DNA from: Roseimicrobium gellanilyticum
GTDB lineage: Bacteria > Verrucomicrobiota > Verrucomicrobiia > Verrucomicrobiales > Verrucomicrobiaceae
Direction: 5' to 3'
Length of the DNA: 64,000 bases
Assembly (NCBI RefSeq): GCF_003315205.1
Contig: NZ_QNRR01000016.1
Span: forward strand, 1-64,000
Of the stretch, positions 33,388-53,601 are shown piece after piece. The notes beneath the pieces are model-generated. The model was given only the letters and a program-made list of their open reading frames with translations, was not told where the DNA came from and did not search any database. Position numbers and translations under genes: made by a program. Numbering within the stretch: position 1 is the first letter of the stretch; each line of letters begins with the position of its first letter.

Positions 33388-33444
33388 AGACCCGGCTGGC
33401 CAAGGTTCCAGATGGAGGAAGCAACAGGGCGAGCGGGGGTTTTG

Positions 33445-34025
33445 GTCAGACCGGAGGTCTAACTTCCACTGTCAGGCGGGACGCCTAACCTCCGGGCGTT
33501 CAGTCGCAGCGAGACAGAGCGTCTGCTTTGCGCACCACTCCACAGCACAACGTGCGCCACTCTGCCTCCTTACGCGTCGAGATGTACCATCACCCACCAT
33601 CCGTCCCGCCCAGCACCAATCCTCCCTCCTCCTCTGCGTCCTTTGCACCTCTGCTTCTTTGCGGTTAACCGGAAGTGGACTTGCGATGTGTTCTCGTGAA
33701 TGACGCATTCGTCAGACCGGAGGTCTAACGCCCACTGTCAGGCGGGACGCCTAACCTCCGGGCGTTCAGTCGCAGCGAGACAGAGCGTCTGCTTTGCGCA
33801 CCACTCCACAGCACAACGTGCGCCACTCTGCCTCCTTACGCGTCGAGATGTACCATCACACACCATCCGTCCCGCCCAGCACCAATCCTCCCTCCTCCTC
33901 TGCGTCCTTTGCACCTCTGCTCCTTTGCGGTTAACCGGAAGTGGACTTGCGATGTGTTCTCGTGATTGGACGCATTCGTCAGACCGGAGGTCTAACGCCC
34001 ACTGTCAGGCGGGACGCCTAACCTC
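33445..34025. repeat. Tandem duplication of a 266-bp composite repeat plus a partial third copy
   Basis: The block 33445-33710 (266 bp) is repeated almost without change at 33711-33977 (267 bp), and the first 48 bp recur at 33978-34025. Each unit contains a 'gaccggaggtctaac ... gacgcctaacctcc' segment (also at 45655, 46015, 58688, 58785, 61420) and a 'ctctgcgtcctttgcacctc ... ttaaccggaag' segment that is one arm of the large palindromes at 35655 and 45462. The open frames across it are repeat translations, not genes. Confidence 0.92.
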
Positions 34026-34206
34026 CTGGAATTTCTTTGCTGCTTCGCTGCTTTGCGTTTCATCTCCACGCACAGACACGACAACTCAACCAGCCGGACG
34101 GCGTAGCCACCCGACTGATTGATTGCCTGTCTGGCGGGTCAGCGGAGACCGGCCAGTTACCAATACCATTTGGCAGGAAAGTGGACGAAAGGTGGGACGC
34201 TTGCCG
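34026..34206. other. Remainder of the repeat zone before the ferritin-like gene
   Basis: The zone continues with a 'tttgctgcttcgctgctttgcg' word, an interior piece of the large palindrome family, and then about 130 bp with no recognisable feature up to the stop of the minus-strand ferritin-like gene at 34207. No terminator is evident. Confidence 0.5.
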
Positions 34207-35633: not shown

Positions 35634-35650
35634 TGGGGGATCCACAGGAC

Positions 35651-36205
35651 GATTCGGGTTCACCGCAAAGGGGCAAAGGGGCAAAGGACGCAGAGGATTG
35701 GAAGGTAGGCGGCCTGCGTGAGGTAGTGCGTCTCGATGCGGAGGAGGCAGAGACGCGCAGATAGGTGATGGGCGAGAAAGGGACGCCTTTGCGATGGTGG
35801 ACGGTGGCGGGCGTGTGGGTTTTATCGCAAAGCAGCAGAGCAGCAAAGAGATTGGAGGTATGCGTTGAGGCGCTCACGCCGTTGCGCCTGCTGTGGCGAT
35901 GGCAGATGAAGCGAGGTATCGCAGCGTGGTCTGAAACTCCTCACATCCAAACACGCCGGCCAGAGGCCAGCGCTCCCAGGGCCTGCGAGGCTCATCAAAC
36001 CACACTCTTCTTTGCTGCTCTGCTGCTTTGCGACAAACCCCATGCAGCCAGCATCCCCGCCGAACGTGGAAACCACGGAAGAGCCAACCTGCGCGTCTCT
36101 GCCTCCTCCGCATCGAGGCATACCCACCTCCCGCAGGCAATACCTTTCCAATCCTCTGCGTCCTTTGCGTCTTTGCCCCTTTGCGGTGAACCGGAAGCGT
36201 CCATT
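35651..36205. repeat. 550-bp multi-arm palindromic element
   Basis: The left arm (35651-35760: accgcaaaggggcaaagggg ... gaggaggcagagacgcgcag) matches the reverse complement of the right arm (36090-36200) over about 110 bp. An inner pair (35815-35860 gttttatcgcaaagcagcag and 36010-36055 tgctgctttgcgacaaaccc) makes a second stem. No gene is inside. The same architecture occurs at 45462-45985, and single arms occur twice in 33445-33977. Confidence 0.9.
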
Positions 36206-45349: not shown

Positions 45350-45461
45350 GCGTGTCGTGGTTCCCTTCGCCCATGAAACGCGGGATGCGTGGCGGGGAAA
45401 GCGCAAAGTTTTGGGAGTGTGGCGGGAAGGAAGCAGACGATATCACGCCATAGGGACGCTT

Positions 45462-45985
45462 CCGGTTAACCGCAAAGGGGCAGAGAGGCAAAGGTCGCAG
45501 AGGATTGGAAGGGTATTGCCTGCGGGAGGTGGTGCGTTTCGTTGCGGAGGAGGCAGAGGAACGGAGAGGACGCGAGGAAAGGACGACTGCATGCTGAGCA
45601 CGCAGGCTTTGTTTTATTGCAAAGCGGCCAAGTAGCGAAAGCAGCAAAGAATTTCCAACGGAGGTTAGGCCTCCAGCCTGACGGTCCGGTCTGTGAATGT
45701 CTTGAGGTGCGGGCCTCTATCTGGTCAGGAGACCAGGCTTCCTTTCTGACTGATGGGCAACCTCCCTGTCCTTTGCTGCTTGGCTGCTTTGCGATAAAAC
45801 CAACCCGCCTCACCCCGGCGACCAACTCAAAGTCATCCCTACCACACATCCCCCGCCGCGACTCTGCCTCCTCTGCTTCGAAGTGCACCACGTCCGGCGT
45901 ATCCATCACCTCCCCCACTCCATCCCAAGGTCCTTTGCGTCCTTTGCCCCTCTGCGTCTTTGCGGTTAAGCGGAAACGGCCTTGT
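45462..45985. repeat. Second 525-bp multi-arm palindromic element
   Basis: The outer arms (45462-45515 ggttaaccgcaaaggggcag ... cgcagaggattgg, and 45925-45980 in reverse ending ctttgcggttaagcgg) and inner arms (45605-45650 gttttattgcaaagcggcca, and 45765-45805 gctgctttgcgataaaacca) match the layout of 35651-36205. A 'ggaggttaggcctcc' repeat of the family at 58688 is embedded at 45658-45690. No gene is inside. Confidence 0.88.
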
Positions 45986-46068: not shown

Positions 46069-46185
46069 GAGCTTCTTTGTTGTGCGAACGCTCTGCTTTG
46101 CGATTCCACCTGTACGCGCCTCTTGACCCCGCCGCGCAGCACGCGAAACATAGTTCTCTCCTCCTTCCTCATTCTCCCTTTCCTC

Positions 46186-47187
46186 ATGGCTTCCAGCAGC
46201 AACTCCCCTCGCATTCTCGTCACCGGCGGCGCCGGATTCATTGGCTCGGCACTGGTGTGGGCGCTCAATCTGCGGGGACATGAGAACATCCTCGTGACCG
46301 ACCGCCTCTCGACGGACGAGAAATGGAAGAACCTGGTGGCACTGAAGTATGCCGACTACCTGGACGCCGATGATCTGCTGAAGGCTGTCGAGACCCGGCC
46401 GGATCACCTGGGCAAGTTTGATGTGGTGTATCACCTCGGCGCGAACTCGGCCACCACCGAGCGCGACTCGCACCACCTGATGAAGAACAACTTCGAGTAC
46501 ACGAAGACCCTCGCGCACTGGGCACTTGGCATGGGCGCCCGCTTCGTCTACGCCTCCTCCGCTGCGACCTATGGCGATGGCGCCTATGGCATGGATGACA
46601 AGATGGAGGACATCGACGTGCTGCGCCCGCTGAACATGTACGGCTACTCGAAGCACCTCTTCGACCAGTATGCCCGCCGCGCCGGCATCGACCAACGCAT
46701 CGTGGGATTGAAGTACTTCAACGTCTACGGCCCGAATGAAAATCACAAGGGCGACATGCGCTCCGTGGTGAACAAGGCCTTCGCCCAAATCCAGAACGAG
46801 GGCAAGGTGCAACTCTTCCGCAGCCACCGCCCCGACTACGGCGACGGCGAGCAGATGCGCGACTTCCTCTATGTGAAGGATGCGGTGGACATGACCATCT
46901 TCCTCGGCACCAACCCGGACGTGGGCGGCCTCTGCAACCTCGGCTCCGGCAAGGCCCACTCCTGGAAGCAGCTCGTGAGCGCCATCTTTGCCGCTCTGGA
47001 TCTGCCGGTGAACATTGAGTTCGTGGACATGCCCGCCCACCTGCAGGCGAAGTACCAGTACTACACCTGCGCGGATATCAGCAAACTGCGCTCCGCCGGC
47101 TTCAACGGCACCATCACTGAGCTGGACGTCGCCGTGAAGGACTACGTGCAGGGCTACATGGCACCGGGAAAATTGCTCGGGGATTAG
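46186..47187 (+). CDS. hldD: ADP-L-glycero-D-manno-heptose-6-epimerase
   Basis: A 333-residue extended short-chain dehydrogenase starting MASSSNSPRI, with the nucleotide motif TGGAGFIG (13-20), the 'YHLGANSATTE' stretch characteristic of HldD/RfaD, the catalytic Y-G-Y-S-K and 'KYFNVYGPNENHKGDMRSVV', which is strongly conserved in heptose epimerases. It epimerises ADP-D-glycero-D-manno-heptose to the L-glycero form for LPS core synthesis, indicating a Gram-negative envelope with heptose-containing LPS. An upstream Met at 46123 is less likely. Confidence 0.92.
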   Translation: MASSSNSPRILVTGGAGFIGSALVWALNLRGHENILVTDRLSTDEKWKNLVALKYADYLDADDLLKAVETRPDHLGKFDVVYHLGANSATTERDSHHLMKNNFEYTKTLAHWALGMGARFVYASSAATYGDGAYGMDDKMEDIDVLRPLNMYGYSKHLFDQYARRAGIDQRIVGLKYFNVYGPNENHKGDMRSVVNKAFAQIQNEGKVQLFRSHRPDYGDGEQMRDFLYVKDAVDMTIFLGTNPDVGGLCNLGSGKAHSWKQLVSAIFAALDLPVNIEFVDMPAHLQAKYQYYTCADISKLRSAGFNGTITELDVAVKDYVQGYMAPGKLLGD

Positions 47188-47190
47188 GGC

Positions 47191-47236
47191 AATTACTTCG
47201 CTAACGAAGTAATTGACAAACATTGGTTTTTCCTGA
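47191..47236 (+). promoter_or_regulatory. Palindrome and conserved TTGACA leader before the first Lon-like gene
   Basis: A perfect stem AATTACTTCG (47191-47200) / CGAAGTAATT (47205-47214) with loop ctaa is followed by TTGACA (47213-47218) and gtttttcctgatggatgg up to the start. TTGACA and the gtttttcctgatggatgg block recur before the second paralogue (49469-49500) with the same 23-bp distance from TTGACA to ATG, but the palindrome does not. The stem could be a terminator of hldD or an operator. No matching -10 box was found. Confidence 0.5.
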
Positions 47237-49443
47237 TGGATGGGCGCGTGAAACTCCCATCACTTTCCAAGTATTTTCTGTACGGTGGCCTTTTGCTGGT
47301 TTTGCAGGTAGCGACACCCAACCTGGTTCAGGGACAGACGATATATTCCAACGAGTCCGCGAGCCTCCCAAAGGCGAAATACACTTCGAGCTCCAACGTC
47401 CACATGGTCGGTGGCGATGTGAGAGAGCCTTTTTTTCAATCACGGTTGGGGAAAAAGATCGTCTTGGAAATCGCCCCGTTCTCGGAGGTGTACGGCGTTC
47501 ACCTCACGCTGACGAACACGAGGCTCGTGGCGACCAACGTCACCTTTCGAAACTGTAGCATTGTCGTCGCTGAAAACGGAGCTGCGGACCTCACCGGCTG
47601 CTTCCTCGAGACAACCAAAGTGGGGACCAAAGGAGCGTTCTACAGGAGCTCCCCCCTGCCCGTTTCAGGTTACCCGCACTCTGGAACGTGGATCCTTCTC
47701 AAGGACTGTATCTTGAGCGAAACCGAGTTGTCCTATCTGCGGCCCGCTACAGGAAATGGGACGAACCTCGAAGGCACCTTCCAGCTGGAGCAGTGCACTG
47801 TCTACGGTCCTTCGTCGACTCTGCCCGACGTTCCCCTGACCGATAGCTTCCGGGAGTATGTGAAGCACAACGAACTGAAACTCAAAGCCTGCAAATTCAC
47901 AGATCTCGTTCTCGACACCGCCATGCTTGCCATTTCGGAAGACTGCATTTTCGAGAATTGCCGGCCCGGGGATGGGGCGAAGGCACTCAGTATTCCAGGA
48001 GTCGAGACCCTGCCAGTCAGCGCAAAATTTATTCCAGCTACGAGTGCCGGTGAGGTCGCGGCAAAATATCCACAGCTCCGCTTTACGTCCTCATCCCTTG
48101 GCAAAGTGGGCTCTTCAGTGGCGCATACAGCTACACAAGGCGTGGTGAAGCTCGTCAACCAGCCTCCCGCGGGTTCTCTGAGGGAAAATTTCCTTCCAAC
48201 AGCCTTGGTGCAGACGACTCCACAGGAGAGCAGGACGAACCCCACTGGCACTCCGAACGAACCCGCCAAAGAGGCCGAATTTACCGGATCGACCACTGGC
48301 ACCATGGGAGCTCCCGACAGCGGGCTCAAGCTCAAACAAACCGCCGTGAACGGCCTGCTCATCATGTCCCTCGCCAGTGGCGAAGCGGGCAGCGCAGCCA
48401 GAATGAGCGCGATTGCCCTTCCTGAAGCGGACAACGCCGGGAATTCCACCCTGCGCTTCAACCAGCCCGTGGGCCCAATGATGGGCAAGGCCCTGGAAGA
48501 GGTGACCAAGTTCACCCAGCTCAATTCCAATGGCTGGCCCAAGGGACACGCGATCGAGATCTCGTTTGCGGACAAGTATTCCAACAAGGATGGCCCTTCC
48601 GCTGCCGTGGCCTGTGCCCTGCTGCTGCACTCGCTCATCTCTGGGAAGGAACTCGACCCGAACTTCGCGGTCACCGGCGACATGAATGCGGATGGAAGTG
48701 TGCAGCCCATCGGCGGAGTCGCTGCAAAAATCCGCGGCGCCACGAAAGGTCAGTGCAAGCTGATCGGCATTCCGGTAAGAAATGAATCATCCCTCCCCGA
48801 CCTGCTGCTCATGGATGGGCCCACTCCCTTTGCCAGCATCCAGATCTTCGGCATTGGAGAGTTCAAGCAAGCCGAAGCCCTTGCCCTGGCACAGAAACCT
48901 GAGACCACCCAGGCGGCGATCGCTGAGATGAATCAAGTGCAGGAGCTGCTGATGCGCAGTCCGGCACAGATGGGCTCCTGGCTGCGCAACCAGCACGTGA
49001 TTGCGAAACTTCAGCAGGTGCTCAAGAACGCGCCGAACAATCTCTCCGCGAAATACCTGCTCATGTATGCCTCCGGCAAACTTCCGCAGACCCTTTCCCT
49101 GGCGGGCTCCATTGTTGCCATCGACAACTCGGCCGGAGACCTGATCTCCACGATCAAAACGAGCAAGGGAGACGCTTTCAACAACATCGGGAAGTCCTCC
49201 TTGGGCAGCAGCCTGACACGCCTGCAGGGACTCCGCGCCCGCTGTGACGCACGGGCACGCCCGTATGCAGATGCCATCATCAATTTCGGCACGGCCGTGA
49301 AGGAGGCCATGGACCGCCCCGCCCAGACGGGACCGCGAGCCATGGAATACCGGGTCAAGATTCGCGGTGCTGCCAGTTCGGTGGAATCCGAATTGAGCCG
49401 ACTGCTCAACGACCCCACCGTACGCGAGGAACTGGAGGGTTGA
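47236..49443 (+). CDS. Exported Lon-type (S16) Ser-Lys protease domain protein, copy 1
   Basis: A 735-residue protein with a signal peptide (cleaved near VQG), an N-terminal half of short beta strands resembling a beta-helix (about 40-270), a low-complexity linker, and from about 365 a Lon proteolytic domain: K-D-G-P-S-A with Ser455 and P-I-G-G-V-A-A-K with Lys498. The 43-residue spacing equals that of Ser679/Lys722 of E. coli Lon. There is no AAA+ ATPase or Lon substrate-binding domain. The C-terminus (about 560-735) is helical. It is the first of two tandem paralogues, 12 bp before the usable frame of the second. Confidence 0.82.
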   Translation: MDGRVKLPSLSKYFLYGGLLLVLQVATPNLVQGQTIYSNESASLPKAKYTSSSNVHMVGGDVREPFFQSRLGKKIVLEIAPFSEVYGVHLTLTNTRLVATNVTFRNCSIVVAENGAADLTGCFLETTKVGTKGAFYRSSPLPVSGYPHSGTWILLKDCILSETELSYLRPATGNGTNLEGTFQLEQCTVYGPSSTLPDVPLTDSFREYVKHNELKLKACKFTDLVLDTAMLAISEDCIFENCRPGDGAKALSIPGVETLPVSAKFIPATSAGEVAAKYPQLRFTSSSLGKVGSSVAHTATQGVVKLVNQPPAGSLRENFLPTALVQTTPQESRTNPTGTPNEPAKEAEFTGSTTGTMGAPDSGLKLKQTAVNGLLIMSLASGEAGSAARMSAIALPEADNAGNSTLRFNQPVGPMMGKALEEVTKFTQLNSNGWPKGHAIEISFADKYSNKDGPSAAVACALLLHSLISGKELDPNFAVTGDMNADGSVQPIGGVAAKIRGATKGQCKLIGIPVRNESSLPDLLLMDGPTPFASIQIFGIGEFKQAEALALAQKPETTQAAIAEMNQVQELLMRSPAQMGSWLRNQHVIAKLQQVLKNAPNNLSAKYLLMYASGKLPQTLSLAGSIVAIDNSAGDLISTIKTSKGDAFNNIGKSSLGSSLTRLQGLRARCDARARPYADAIINFGTAVKEAMDRPAQTGPRAMEYRVKIRGAASSVESELSRLLNDPTVREELEG

Positions 49444-49491
49444 GGACTTCTCCACATGGGAAGAGCAATTGACAATCTCTCGTTTTTCCTG

Positions 49492-51738
49492 ATGGATGGC
49501 AGGGTGAAATGCCGGGCAATTTTCTGGAAAATTCTTGGGCCCGTGGTTTGCGGCCTCGTGGCCGTGTCGCCTCTTGAGGCGCAGAGCACATCCTCGTGTC
49601 TTTTTTACAACTCGTCCCAAAACATCCAGGCTGCCCGGTATGATTCACCTGAGCCGTTTTGGATTCATGGAGGTGACGTGCAGGCCGGGGAGCCGGGCGC
49701 TTTCCAGGCACAGCGCATTGACATCACCATCGCGGAGGACACGGAGTTTCACGGCGTCGCCCTGACCTTCTCCAATGCCAATGTCCGTGCAAAGAAGGTG
49801 CTCTTCAAAGGCGGCACGATCGAGGTCGCGAACGGGGCGCGGCTCATGTTTGAGGACTGCATCTTTGATGGAGTGACCTTCTCCGTGGGTGAACCCCTGC
49901 CCACCCAGGTCACGAACGAGGCTCCCGAGGTGGTGTTTGAGAAATACCGCGGCCACCTCTCGATGAAAAACTCCGTGCTGCACAAGGTGCTCTTCCAGGT
50001 GAAAGGTGGCGCAAGTGCCTTGGTGGGTCTGAAGATGGAGCAGTGTACCGTGCATGGTCCGGACTCACTGCTGCCAGTCATGGATGTGAAGGCGGGATTC
50101 CTGGAAGAGGCGAAGCGCAACCAGACCGAGGTGGTCGGGTGCGCCTTCCACCAGTGCTCCTTCAGTCCGGCCTTTCTGGCGGTGACGCGCGGCAGTGCGT
50201 TTGACAATTGCTCGCTCATCTCCGGTTTGCCCATGGACGGGTTGCCCACGGGAGTCCAGGTATCCGCCACGTTCACGCCCACTGAGAGCGCACAGCAAAT
50301 CACAGCCCAGCTCCCCCAGTTTGTCATCACTCCCTTGAGTCCTGCCGTGGTGACAGGAGCCGGCCTTGGCTACTCGATTGCGGGCGGCGAGGTGACCCGC
50401 AATTCCCTGCCCCCCACCCTGGCCTCGGTAAGGCTTGCGGCCATGCTGCCTCCTGCGGCTCGCCGGGGCCCTGTACCTGTCATGGCCTCGGTGCCCGCGA
50501 CACCCCCGGGTGCCAATCCTGTGTCCATGCCGTCCCGCGAGCCCGTGCCGATGTATGAGCCTGCACCGGTTTCCTCTTCACCTTCGGTTCCGCCTATGGT
50601 GACAGGCACTCCAGGCCTGGGATTAAAAAGCAAGCAGACGAGTGTGCATGGCCTGCTCATCATGTCCCTGGCAGCGGGCGAAGCTGGGGCCGCCTCCAAG
50701 ATGGCCGCGATTGCCCTCCAGAATGGAGGCACCAGCCCTGCGGTGGTCCAGTTCAACCAGCCTGTGGGCGAGATGATGGACAAGGCCCTGGCAGAGGTCA
50801 TCAAGTTCACCCAACTCAACAACAACGGCTGGCCCGAGGGATACCAGATCGAGCTCTCCTTCGCCGACAAGTATTCCAACAAGGATGGCCCGTCTGCCGC
50901 CGTGGCCTGCGCTCTGCTCCTGCACTCGCTCTTCACGGGAAAGGAGCTTGACCCGACCTTTGCCGTCACTGGTGATATGAATGCGGATGGCACCGTGCAA
51001 CCCATCGGCGGAGTCGCGGCCAAGATTCGCGGCGCCACGAAGGGGCACTGCAAGCTGGTGGGCATCCCTGTGAAGAACGAAGCATCCCTCCGCGACGTGC
51101 TGCTCATGGATGGACCGGCGCCGTTTGCCAGCATCCAGATCTTCAGCATTACCAAGTTCGGCGAAGCGGAGGCGCTCGCCCTGGCGCAAAAGCCGGCGGC
51201 CACCCAAGCGGCGATCTCTGAAATGAACCGCGTGCAGGAAGTACTGATGCGGAACCCCGGACAGATGGGCTTGTGGCTGCGTAACCAGCACGTGATTGCG
51301 AAGCTCCAGCAGGTGCTCAAGGACGCGCCCAACCATCTCTCGGCCAAATACCTTTTGATGCATGCCTCAGGAAAAGCTCCCCTGACGCTTTCCCTGGCGG
51401 GCTCTCTCACCACCATCGATGACAACGCCGGTGAACTGCTTGCTGCCATCAAGAGCAACAGGGGTGAGGCCTTCGACAGCATGGGGAAGTCTTCGGTGGG
51501 CAGCAGCCTGACCCGCCTGCAATCCGTGCGCGCCAAGTGCGACGTACGAGCAAGACCCTACGCGGATGCCATCATCGACTTTGGCACCGCGGTGAAGGAG
51601 GCGCAGGACCGCCCAGCCCAGACCGGCACCCGGGCCACGGAATACCGGAACAAGATTCGTGGCGCAGCGGCCTCCGTGGAGGCGGCCATGAACCGCCTGA
51701 TGAATGACCCGACCGTCCGGGAAGAACTGGACCAGTAG
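49492..51738 (+). CDS. Exported Lon-type (S16) Ser-Lys protease domain protein, copy 2
   Basis: A 748-residue paralogue of the preceding gene with the same layout: signal peptide, beta-helix-like N-terminus ('FKGGTIEVANGARLMFEDC'), Pro-rich linker (about 320-375), Lon proteolytic domain with K-D-G-P-S-A (Ser468) and G-G-V-A-A-K (Lys511), spacing again 43, and a helical C-terminus. The C-terminal 370 residues are much more alike in the two copies than the N-terminal halves, so the N-terminal parts diverged faster. The start at 49492 (MDGRVKCRA) aligns with MDGRVKLPS of copy 1, supporting both starts. Confidence 0.82.
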   Translation: MDGRVKCRAIFWKILGPVVCGLVAVSPLEAQSTSSCLFYNSSQNIQAARYDSPEPFWIHGGDVQAGEPGAFQAQRIDITIAEDTEFHGVALTFSNANVRAKKVLFKGGTIEVANGARLMFEDCIFDGVTFSVGEPLPTQVTNEAPEVVFEKYRGHLSMKNSVLHKVLFQVKGGASALVGLKMEQCTVHGPDSLLPVMDVKAGFLEEAKRNQTEVVGCAFHQCSFSPAFLAVTRGSAFDNCSLISGLPMDGLPTGVQVSATFTPTESAQQITAQLPQFVITPLSPAVVTGAGLGYSIAGGEVTRNSLPPTLASVRLAAMLPPAARRGPVPVMASVPATPPGANPVSMPSREPVPMYEPAPVSSSPSVPPMVTGTPGLGLKSKQTSVHGLLIMSLAAGEAGAASKMAAIALQNGGTSPAVVQFNQPVGEMMDKALAEVIKFTQLNNNGWPEGYQIELSFADKYSNKDGPSAAVACALLLHSLFTGKELDPTFAVTGDMNADGTVQPIGGVAAKIRGATKGHCKLVGIPVKNEASLRDVLLMDGPAPFASIQIFSITKFGEAEALALAQKPAATQAAISEMNRVQEVLMRNPGQMGLWLRNQHVIAKLQQVLKDAPNHLSAKYLLMHASGKAPLTLSLAGSLTTIDDNAGELLAAIKSNRGEAFDSMGKSSVGSSLTRLQSVRAKCDVRARPYADAIIDFGTAVKEAQDRPAQTGTRATEYRNKIRGAAASVEAAMNRLMNDPTVREELDQ

Positions 51739-51942: not shown

Positions 51943-53601
51943 ATGTTCGATTTTATCAAACGGTCGCGTCTGACCCGGCAGGGCCTGTCTTGTGGAAAGA
52001 CGCGTCGCAAGCACCTCGACAGCGAAGTCTGGGAAGTACTGCGGGAGAACCCGATTGTAGGCATCGCCATTTTTGCCGCCGGCTTCCTGGTGACGACGCC
52101 ACTTCTGGGGGCGCTGGCCGAGAATCTGCCTGCGGCGGCCGGGGTGAGTCCGGTGTTCATCGCGGCCGTGTTCCTCACTGCCGTGCTGCATTGGGCATTT
52201 GGTTTTCCGGACCACCTGCGCACCAATGGGACCGCGCTGCTGATGCTTTCCGCCTTGGGGCTGCATCTTGCCCTGGTGGGTGCGGTGCTCAGCTATGCAC
52301 ACCACCGGACCTGGACGCCGGACTATGCGATCTTCCTTGTGCCCCATGCCCTGGCCCCCATGATTTTGTGCATGCTGGGGGGACGTCGGCTGGGCTTTTT
52401 CGGCGCTCTCTATGCCGCCATCCTCGGGGCGCCCCTGGTCCCCTCCCCGTCTGTGTTGTCCTTCATCGCGGCAGCCATGGCGATAGGGTTCTTTGGCGTG
52501 TTCGTCACGCGCAAGGTACGCCGCCGCAGCCGCCTGCTGACCAGCGGGGTGTATCTGGGCCTCTTTGCCACGGGCATGATGATCGTCTTCGGCCAGATGC
52601 CCATGGCGGTGACAAAGGGCCGTGAAGCCATCACCATGGCCGCTCCGCTCTTCTGCGGTATCCTTTCCGTGATGGTGGCAGGCGCGGTGCTGCCAGCCTT
52701 TGAATCCCTCTTCCACCGTACCACGGCCATTTCCTGGCTGGAGCTGGGCGACCTGAACCACCCGCTCATGAAGCGTCTGAGCATGGAGGCACCGGGCACC
52801 TACCACCACTCGCTCGTGGTGGCGAACCTCGCGGAAGCCGCGGCGGAGTCCATCGGAGCGAATGCGACGATGTGCCGCGTGTGCAGCTATTTCCATGACA
52901 TCGGGAAGCTCACGAAGCCGGAGTACTTCATCGAGAACATGGACCCGGAGAACAATCCGCACGATGACCTCACGGCGCGCATGAGTGCACTGGTGCTGAT
53001 CGCGCACGTGAAGGACGGGGTGGACATCGCCATCAAGCACAGCCTGAACAGTGCAATCATCGATGTCATCGAGCAGCATCATGGGAACTCGCTCGTGTAC
53101 TATTTCTACCGCCGCGCGCTGGAGCAGAAGAAGGAGGCGCTGAAGCTCGTGGAAGAGGACAAGGCTCGGCAGGACGACGTGCCGGATGTCAGCGAAGACG
53201 GATTCCGCTATCCGGGACCGCGTCCGCAGACCAAAGAAAGCGCCATCATCTCCCTGGCAGATGCCGTGGAGAGTGCGAGCCGCACGCTGTCCAAACCCAC
53301 GCCCAACCGGGTGGAACAACTGGTGGATGACATTGTGCGCAACCGCCTGCTGGACCATCAGCTCGATGAGTGCGACCTGACCCTGGCCGAGCTCAATGAA
53401 GTGAAGGCGAGCTTCGTGAAGACCGTCATGAGCATGATGCACAGCCGCATCAAGTACCCGAAGGAGACGCAGGACAAGACCCGTGATGAAGAGGTGCGCA
53501 AGCAGGCTCGTGATCTGGAACGCCCCTCCGAACATGGACACAGCCATCACGGCGGAGCACCCAGCGGGAAAGTGCCGGTAAGGAATAGCACGGCGGCGTA
53601 A
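51943..53601 (+). CDS. 7TM-HD phosphohydrolase (PgpH/YqfF-like)
   Basis: A 552-residue membrane protein. Six to seven hydrophobic segments lie between about 38 and 265, followed by a cytoplasmic HD domain with H-H-S-L-V-V (His288/289) and Y-F-H-D-I-G-K (His318-Asp319), then conserved I-E-Q-H-H-G and a later D-A-V-E. This is the HD arrangement of PgpH, a c-di-AMP phosphodiesterase. The large extracytoplasmic 7TMR-HDED domain of classical members is missing, so this is a short form. The C-terminus is His/Gly rich. The nucleotide substrate is inferred from family only. Confidence 0.87.
   Translation: MFDFIKRSRLTRQGLSCGKTRRKHLDSEVWEVLRENPIVGIAIFAAGFLVTTPLLGALAENLPAAAGVSPVFIAAVFLTAVLHWAFGFPDHLRTNGTALLMLSALGLHLALVGAVLSYAHHRTWTPDYAIFLVPHALAPMILCMLGGRRLGFFGALYAAILGAPLVPSPSVLSFIAAAMAIGFFGVFVTRKVRRRSRLLTSGVYLGLFATGMMIVFGQMPMAVTKGREAITMAAPLFCGILSVMVAGAVLPAFESLFHRTTAISWLELGDLNHPLMKRLSMEAPGTYHHSLVVANLAEAAAESIGANATMCRVCSYFHDIGKLTKPEYFIENMDPENNPHDDLTARMSALVLIAHVKDGVDIAIKHSLNSAIIDVIEQHHGNSLVYYFYRRALEQKKEALKLVEEDKARQDDVPDVSEDGFRYPGPRPQTKESAIISLADAVESASRTLSKPTPNRVEQLVDDIVRNRLLDHQLDECDLTLAELNEVKASFVKTVMSMMHSRIKYPKETQDKTRDEEVRKQARDLERPSEHGHSHHGGAPSGKVPVRNSTAA

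Follow-up and report, generated by a model that had tools for sequence, protein, structure and literature searches.

Two tandem genes in the window (the whole 64,000-nucleotide stretch of Roseimicrobium gellanilyticum DNA that was analysed) probably encode S16 proteases that are exported by Sec, work independently of ATP and belong to a modular family; they would be directed by their N-terminal heads and cut flexible or unfolded substrates outside the cytoplasm. We give this reading a probability of about 0.7. The domain order, folds, catalytic dyad, conservation, modularity and lack of a detectable ATPase domain were computed, and from them we infer export, ring formation, proteolytic activity and the kind of substrate. 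Lon is the textbook ATP-driven intracellular protease, and the family suggests that its proteolytic blade has been reused outside the cell.

The two open reading frames lie on the same strand with 48 bases between them (Table 1). In protein a, a signal-like segment is followed by a beta-helix, a linker, the S16 domain and a helical C-terminal domain. The longest open frame of gene b begins at 49456; we preferred the ATG at 49492 because it aligns with the start of gene a and fits the numbering of the dyad as 468/511. Counted from it, protein b starts with MDGRVK, as protein a does. An alternative GTG start lies four codons into each gene (47248 and 49504) and leaves the signal-like segment unaffected. 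The 25-base leader containing TTGACA is a possible promoter or start-site element; it also precedes two of the three copies in a congener.

Table 1. Features of the gene pair in the window, and overlapping dead/active pairs of the same family elsewhere
Feature	Position	Strand	Basis or remark
NAD-dependent epimerase gene, upstream of pair	46123..47187	+	Syntenic in congener; synteny alone, no functional link implied
25-base leader containing TTGACA, before gene a	47211..47235	+	Sequence repeat
Protein a, S16 protease, exported-looking, 735 aa	47236..49443	+	Pfam scan, AlphaFold2 model
Protein a, signal-peptide-like N-terminus, residues 1-34	47236..47337	+	Inspection, heuristic; low pLDDT in model
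Protein a, beta-strand-rich N-terminal domain, residues 35-266	47338..48033	+	Model; beta-helix via homology with protein b
Protein a, S16 domain, residues 366-555	48331..48900	+	Pfam Lon_C; fold match to 1rr9
Protein a, predicted catalytic Ser455 codon	48598..48600	+	Alignment with E. coli Lon
Protein a, predicted catalytic Lys498 codon	48727..48729	+	Alignment with E. coli Lon
Protein a, conserved all-helical C-terminal domain, residues 556-735	48901..49440	+	Family alignment, model
Same TTGACA leader, before gene b	49467..49491	+	Sequence repeat
Protein b, S16 protease, exported-looking, 748 aa from ATG 49492	49492..51738	+	Pfam scan, pairwise alignment
Protein b, predicted right-handed beta-helix domain	49585..50406	+	AlphaFold2 model of domain alone
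Protein b, S16 domain	50626..51195	+	Pfam Lon_C, alignment with protein a
Protein b, predicted catalytic Ser468 codon (numbered from 49492)	50893..50895	+	Alignment
Protein b, predicted catalytic Lys511 codon (numbered from 49492)	51022..51024	+	Alignment
Protein b, helical C-terminal domain	51196..51735	+	Alignment with protein a
7TM-HD gene, downstream of pair	51943..53601	+	Syntenic in congener; synteny alone, no functional link implied
Overlapping dead/active pair (G053)	L042:6157-9416		
Overlapping dead/active pair (G602)	L113:531-3814		
Overlapping dead/active pair (G590)	L120:218-3627		

The congener carries three tandem copies, against two in the window, at the same place and between the same flanking neighbours, the epimerase gene upstream and the 7TM-HD gene downstream; one of the three has Lys replaced by Arg. 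Beyond the genus no conserved gene neighbour was seen. DUF1501/DUF1549-like genes, noticed by eye near a few members, were discounted as partners, as genes of this kind occur widely in these bacteria. No described RNA element was found in the 44-54 kb region of the window. Dispersed and tandem repeats, in families of 46-261 nt, occupy 33436-34069, 35647-36197 and 45454-45976, and repeats related to them also surround the S16 array of the congener (L034).

Both proteins matched the Pfam Lon_C model above its cut-off of 21.1 bits (protein a, 48.5 bits, E = 1e-12; protein b, 49.9 bits, E = 4e-13), so that chance is ruled out as the source of the matches. Ser455 and Lys498 of protein a, and Ser468 and Lys511 of protein b, align with the catalytic dyad of E. 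coli Lon and share its spacing of 43 residues, which holds for every core member in the first family alignment. The first-pass annotation had described S16 domains with Ser and Lys at this distance, and the Lon_C matches and the alignment with E. coli Lon bear this out. The Lon fold was likewise recovered when, as had been proposed there, structure prediction was compared with S16 folds. The AlphaFold2 model of protein a, built on a 34-row family alignment (A1), had a mean pLDDT of 84; its residues 366-555 superimposed on E. coli Lon (1rr9) with Z = 20.8 (2.1 Å over 176 residues), and a Foldseek search with the model found the Lon proteolytic domain at E of about 1e-10. From Lys498 to the next strand the chain has the length seen in E. 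coli Lon, with no insertion. The fold match by itself demonstrates no function. Residues 556-735 are all helix in the model and are conserved through the family; the whole-model fold search is uninformative on this domain, as its matches were filled by S16.

In the scheme that we favour, the proteins would be exported by Sec and lose their signal peptides, after which the N-terminal beta-helix would recognise an extracytoplasmic target or dock on it. A low-complexity linker would join this head to the Lon blade, which would cut peptide bonds through the Ser-Lys dyad. By analogy with the S16 rings of Lon and LonC, the blades probably assemble into a ring; the helical C-terminal domain probably either assists in this assembly or controls access. 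Since there is no ATP motor, the blade would be expected to act on peptides, on unfolded chains and on the flexible loops of exported proteins. The most likely role of the pair is to process proteins that are exported or lie at the surface, and the envelope or surface is the best reading of the site of action.

The heads are the variable part of this arrangement. When the N-terminal domain of protein b was modelled in isolation, using 12 relatives (pTM 0.88, pLDDT 87.5), it read as a right-handed beta-helix: the Foldseek matches were weak (best E = 2.9e-3), with nearly all of them to beta-helix or pentapeptide-repeat proteins, and in VIA-align about 200 residues superimposed on pectate lyases, tailspikes and AlgG with Z scores of 12-15. 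The beta-helix that had been assigned to the N-terminal half thus stands for the modelled protein b, but not as a general partner of the blade, being only one of several modules. Across the family a constant core (S16 plus the helical C-terminal domain) is preceded by N-terminal groups with no detectable similarity to one another: beta-helix and C-type lectin heads, heads that look helical and at least two other types, besides members with practically no head. Beta-helix heads occur in the genus of the window and in one large genus of its family, and the helical-looking type is common in other families of the order; C-type lectin domains were found in the L038 member and in two further N-terminal regions. 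In L016, L124 and L128 the proteins are almost headless, with 31-35 residues ahead of the core. In G025 (L037:5116-9421) the gene after an S16 member codes for a secreted-looking protein that joins a related N-terminal region to a C39-like peptidase, as if the N-terminal modules carried different proteases.

The same contrast between head and core separates the two proteins of the window. They are 51% identical overall, with 74-76% identity in the S16 and C-terminal parts but 26% in the N-terminal half, and dN between them is 0.93 for the N-terminal domain against 0.17 for the S16 and C-terminal domains, so that divergence of the head is about fivefold faster. The dN/dS ratio is about 0.2 across the S16 and C-terminal domains, and the S16 domain is, as judged from sequence comparison, under purifying selection. 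Gene conversion of the 3′ halves was considered and is not clearly supported, as dS in the S16 and C-terminal domains is 0.9-1.0, near saturation too.

A conserved blade next to diverse, fast-evolving heads could also mean that the S16 domain is a protease for intramolecular maturation, cutting its own chain (in the linker, for example) and so freeing or maturing the head, which would be the true effector. Some Ser-Lys proteases do act in cis, and the module is separated from the blade by a long, poorly conserved linker of low confidence (residues 321-350 of protein a, pLDDT about 41-56). However, the nearly headless members have little to release, and the conserved helical C-terminal domain is left unexplained by pure self-processing, so we consider this reading unlikely.

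The rapid divergence of the heads, together with the change in copy number within the genus, would suit a role in cell or host contact, in which the heads, lectin or beta-helix, would bind glycans or proteins of foreign origin, and foreign surface proteins would be the target of the blade. The C-type lectin heads point the same way, as does the fact that the closest folds to the beta-helix head are mostly polysaccharide-active. Against this, no neighbour was recognised as toxin-like, nor was any immunity gene or secretion-system marker, Pfam scans of the heads returned no lyase family up to E = 1, and most members in the other families of the order have a head with no Pfam match. We regard such a role as quite improbable. 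Processing of exported or surface proteins remains the preferred reading, and to this we would add, as a tentative extension that we think doubtful, that modular heads aim one exported Lon blade at varied extracytoplasmic targets across the order, with mixed active/dead rings, encoded by genes that overlap by four bases, in some lineages.

Export is suggested by the N-termini. Proteins a and b each begin with a basic and hydrophobic segment, after which comes a small-residue site (VQGQ and LEAQ, respectively), and most relatives have similar signal-like N-termini by inspection and a rough script. The signal peptides that had been called in the first pass are therefore plausible, but the script is a rough heuristic that also fired on the probably cytosolic epimerase and is not discriminating enough to give a rate. 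An extracytoplasmic location fits the signal-like N-termini, an apparent lipobox in the L114 member and the C-type lectin heads, and proteins a and b are likely to be exported.

The absence of an ATPase domain from either chain, as originally claimed, was upheld: Pfam and NCBIfam scans of proteins a and b found no AAA+, LON or PDZ domain, and the NCBIfam Lon models matched only around S16, far below cut-off. Well-studied Lon proteases couple to AAA+ modules, and the proteins could in principle be cytoplasmic and work with a separate AAA+ ATPase in trans. The signal-like N-termini, lectin heads and apparent lipobox speak against this, as does the lack of an ATPase in the neighbouring genes that were scanned around the pair. 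The S16 proteases YlbL and SepM, moreover, work outside without an ATPase (PMC6051672, PMC11197336), and we hold a cytoplasmic partnership to be very improbable. Proteins a and b account for all Lon_C matches in the genome (7.93 Mb, 99.7% complete), and canonical Lon was not detected in it or in the congener G001 (about 99% complete). Canonical Lon is patchy among relatives (13 of 57), and the exported family is found both with it (G002, G012, G018 and G027) and without it.

A search with the family profile, taking E = 1e-40 or better as membership, placed the family in 84 of 280 genomes and 25 of 41 genera of Verrucomicrobiales. No member was found beyond the order in a 388-genome sample of the phylum, where all outside matches were weaker than 1e-23 and most of them fell in frames at least about 800 aa long, the size that canonical Lon would give. 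The family was not found in viral contigs, and on plasmids no match extended over most of the query; the matches there covered less than half of the core and included annotated lon genes. A single-sequence contig search beyond the phylum, in which other phyla were hardly sampled, returned only clostridial Lon. In a maximum-likelihood S16 tree with LonA alone as outgroup, including that of a clostridial genome, the family formed one branch with support of 99/99, within which the long-branched degenerate members were placed unsurely. Thus, the suggestion of an S16 clade limited to PVC bacteria holds as far as the separate branch is concerned, while its range narrows to the order within the phylum sample, with few other phyla covered; among the genomes searched the family is apparently confined to this order. 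Another secreted-looking S16 protein (L050:5027-7114 in G048; 695 aa, with DGPSAG and GGIPQK) seems to lie outside the family. No paper describing the family was found in the open-access literature, subscription journals being mostly uncovered.

Both copies in the window keep the dyad, and Ser and Lys are intact in 97 of the 111 members that could be scored; since they are lost in the other 14, activity is not essential for every member. In three genomes (G053, G590 and G602) a dead copy lies directly before an active one with a four-base ATGA overlap. The changes in these dead copies are Ser to Ala or Gly and Lys to Arg. They are mutually 28-38% identical (L113 and L120, 38%), and on the strength of this resemblance across genomes they look maintained rather than decaying; a fragment at a stretch end in G588 resembles them as well (45% identity to the G053 copy). 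The overlapping arrangement, a feature of gene order and sequence, hints that dead and active copies may form mixed complexes. That the S16 domain is a binding scaffold with proteolysis abandoned, as the members lacking Ser or Lys and the mutual conservation of some of them might suggest, is scarcely credible given the dyad kept in both window proteins and most members and the purifying selection on the domain.

The Lon blade is apparently used outside the cytoplasm by a large family that has exchangeable heads and a C-terminal domain of its own, and some genomes that host the family may lack Lon altogether. The family shows the evolution of a catalytic unit away from its motor and opens the question of how ATP-free S16 proteases choose substrates to testing, and the role of inactive S16 subunits can be studied in a natural system, the coupled active/dead pairs.

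The first-pass annotation had called ATP-independent exported forms of Lon with beta-helix partners little described; exported Lon-type proteases without an ATPase, and ATP-independent Lon-like ones, are already known. In B. subtilis the S16 protease YlbL, which lacks AAA+ and likely acts outside, degrades YneA (PMC6051672); SepM of S. mutans, a PDZ-S16 protease of the membrane, trims the CSP-21 pheromone (PMC11197336); and MtaLonC is a hexameric ATP-independent S16 protease that degrades unfolded proteins (PMC3391209). YlbL and SepM are membrane-anchored S16 proteases that act outside the cytoplasm without AAA+, as the window proteins probably do, and YlbL has a Ser-Lys dyad (PMC6051672, PMC11197336). 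However, they carry PDZ, whereas no PDZ was found in the window proteins, and the present family combines a conserved helical C-terminal domain with a head that is a beta-helix or of another type; NF041438, the model for SepM, scored only 15.1 and 12.7 bits against the window proteins (cut-off 200), and the dyad spacing is 45 residues in YlbL (S234/K279) rather than 43. MtaLonC and TTC1975 (LonC) share ATP-independent S16 proteolysis (PMC3391209), but no export is reported for LonC, whose large N-terminal region aligns with AAA+ and which has LonC-specific insertions, while the window proteins have a beta-helix N-terminal half, no insertion after Lys498 and no detectable AAA+ remnant.

LonA (E. 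coli Lon) and archaeal LonB share the S16 fold with the window protein (Z about 18-21); LonA also shares the dyad spacing of 43, and the family profile scores highest against the LonB structure 3k1j. The window proteins differ from both in having no LON or AAA+ domain, an export-like N-terminus and an extra C-terminal helical domain, and from LonA in forming a separate branch of the S16 tree. With right-handed beta-helix proteins (pectate lyases, tailspikes, AlgG) the head of protein b has the fold alone in common, at 7-15% identity and with no Pfam lyase match. Thus, an exported S16 protease without an ATPase is of a known kind, and what is new is the architecture, the modularity and the dead/active pairs.
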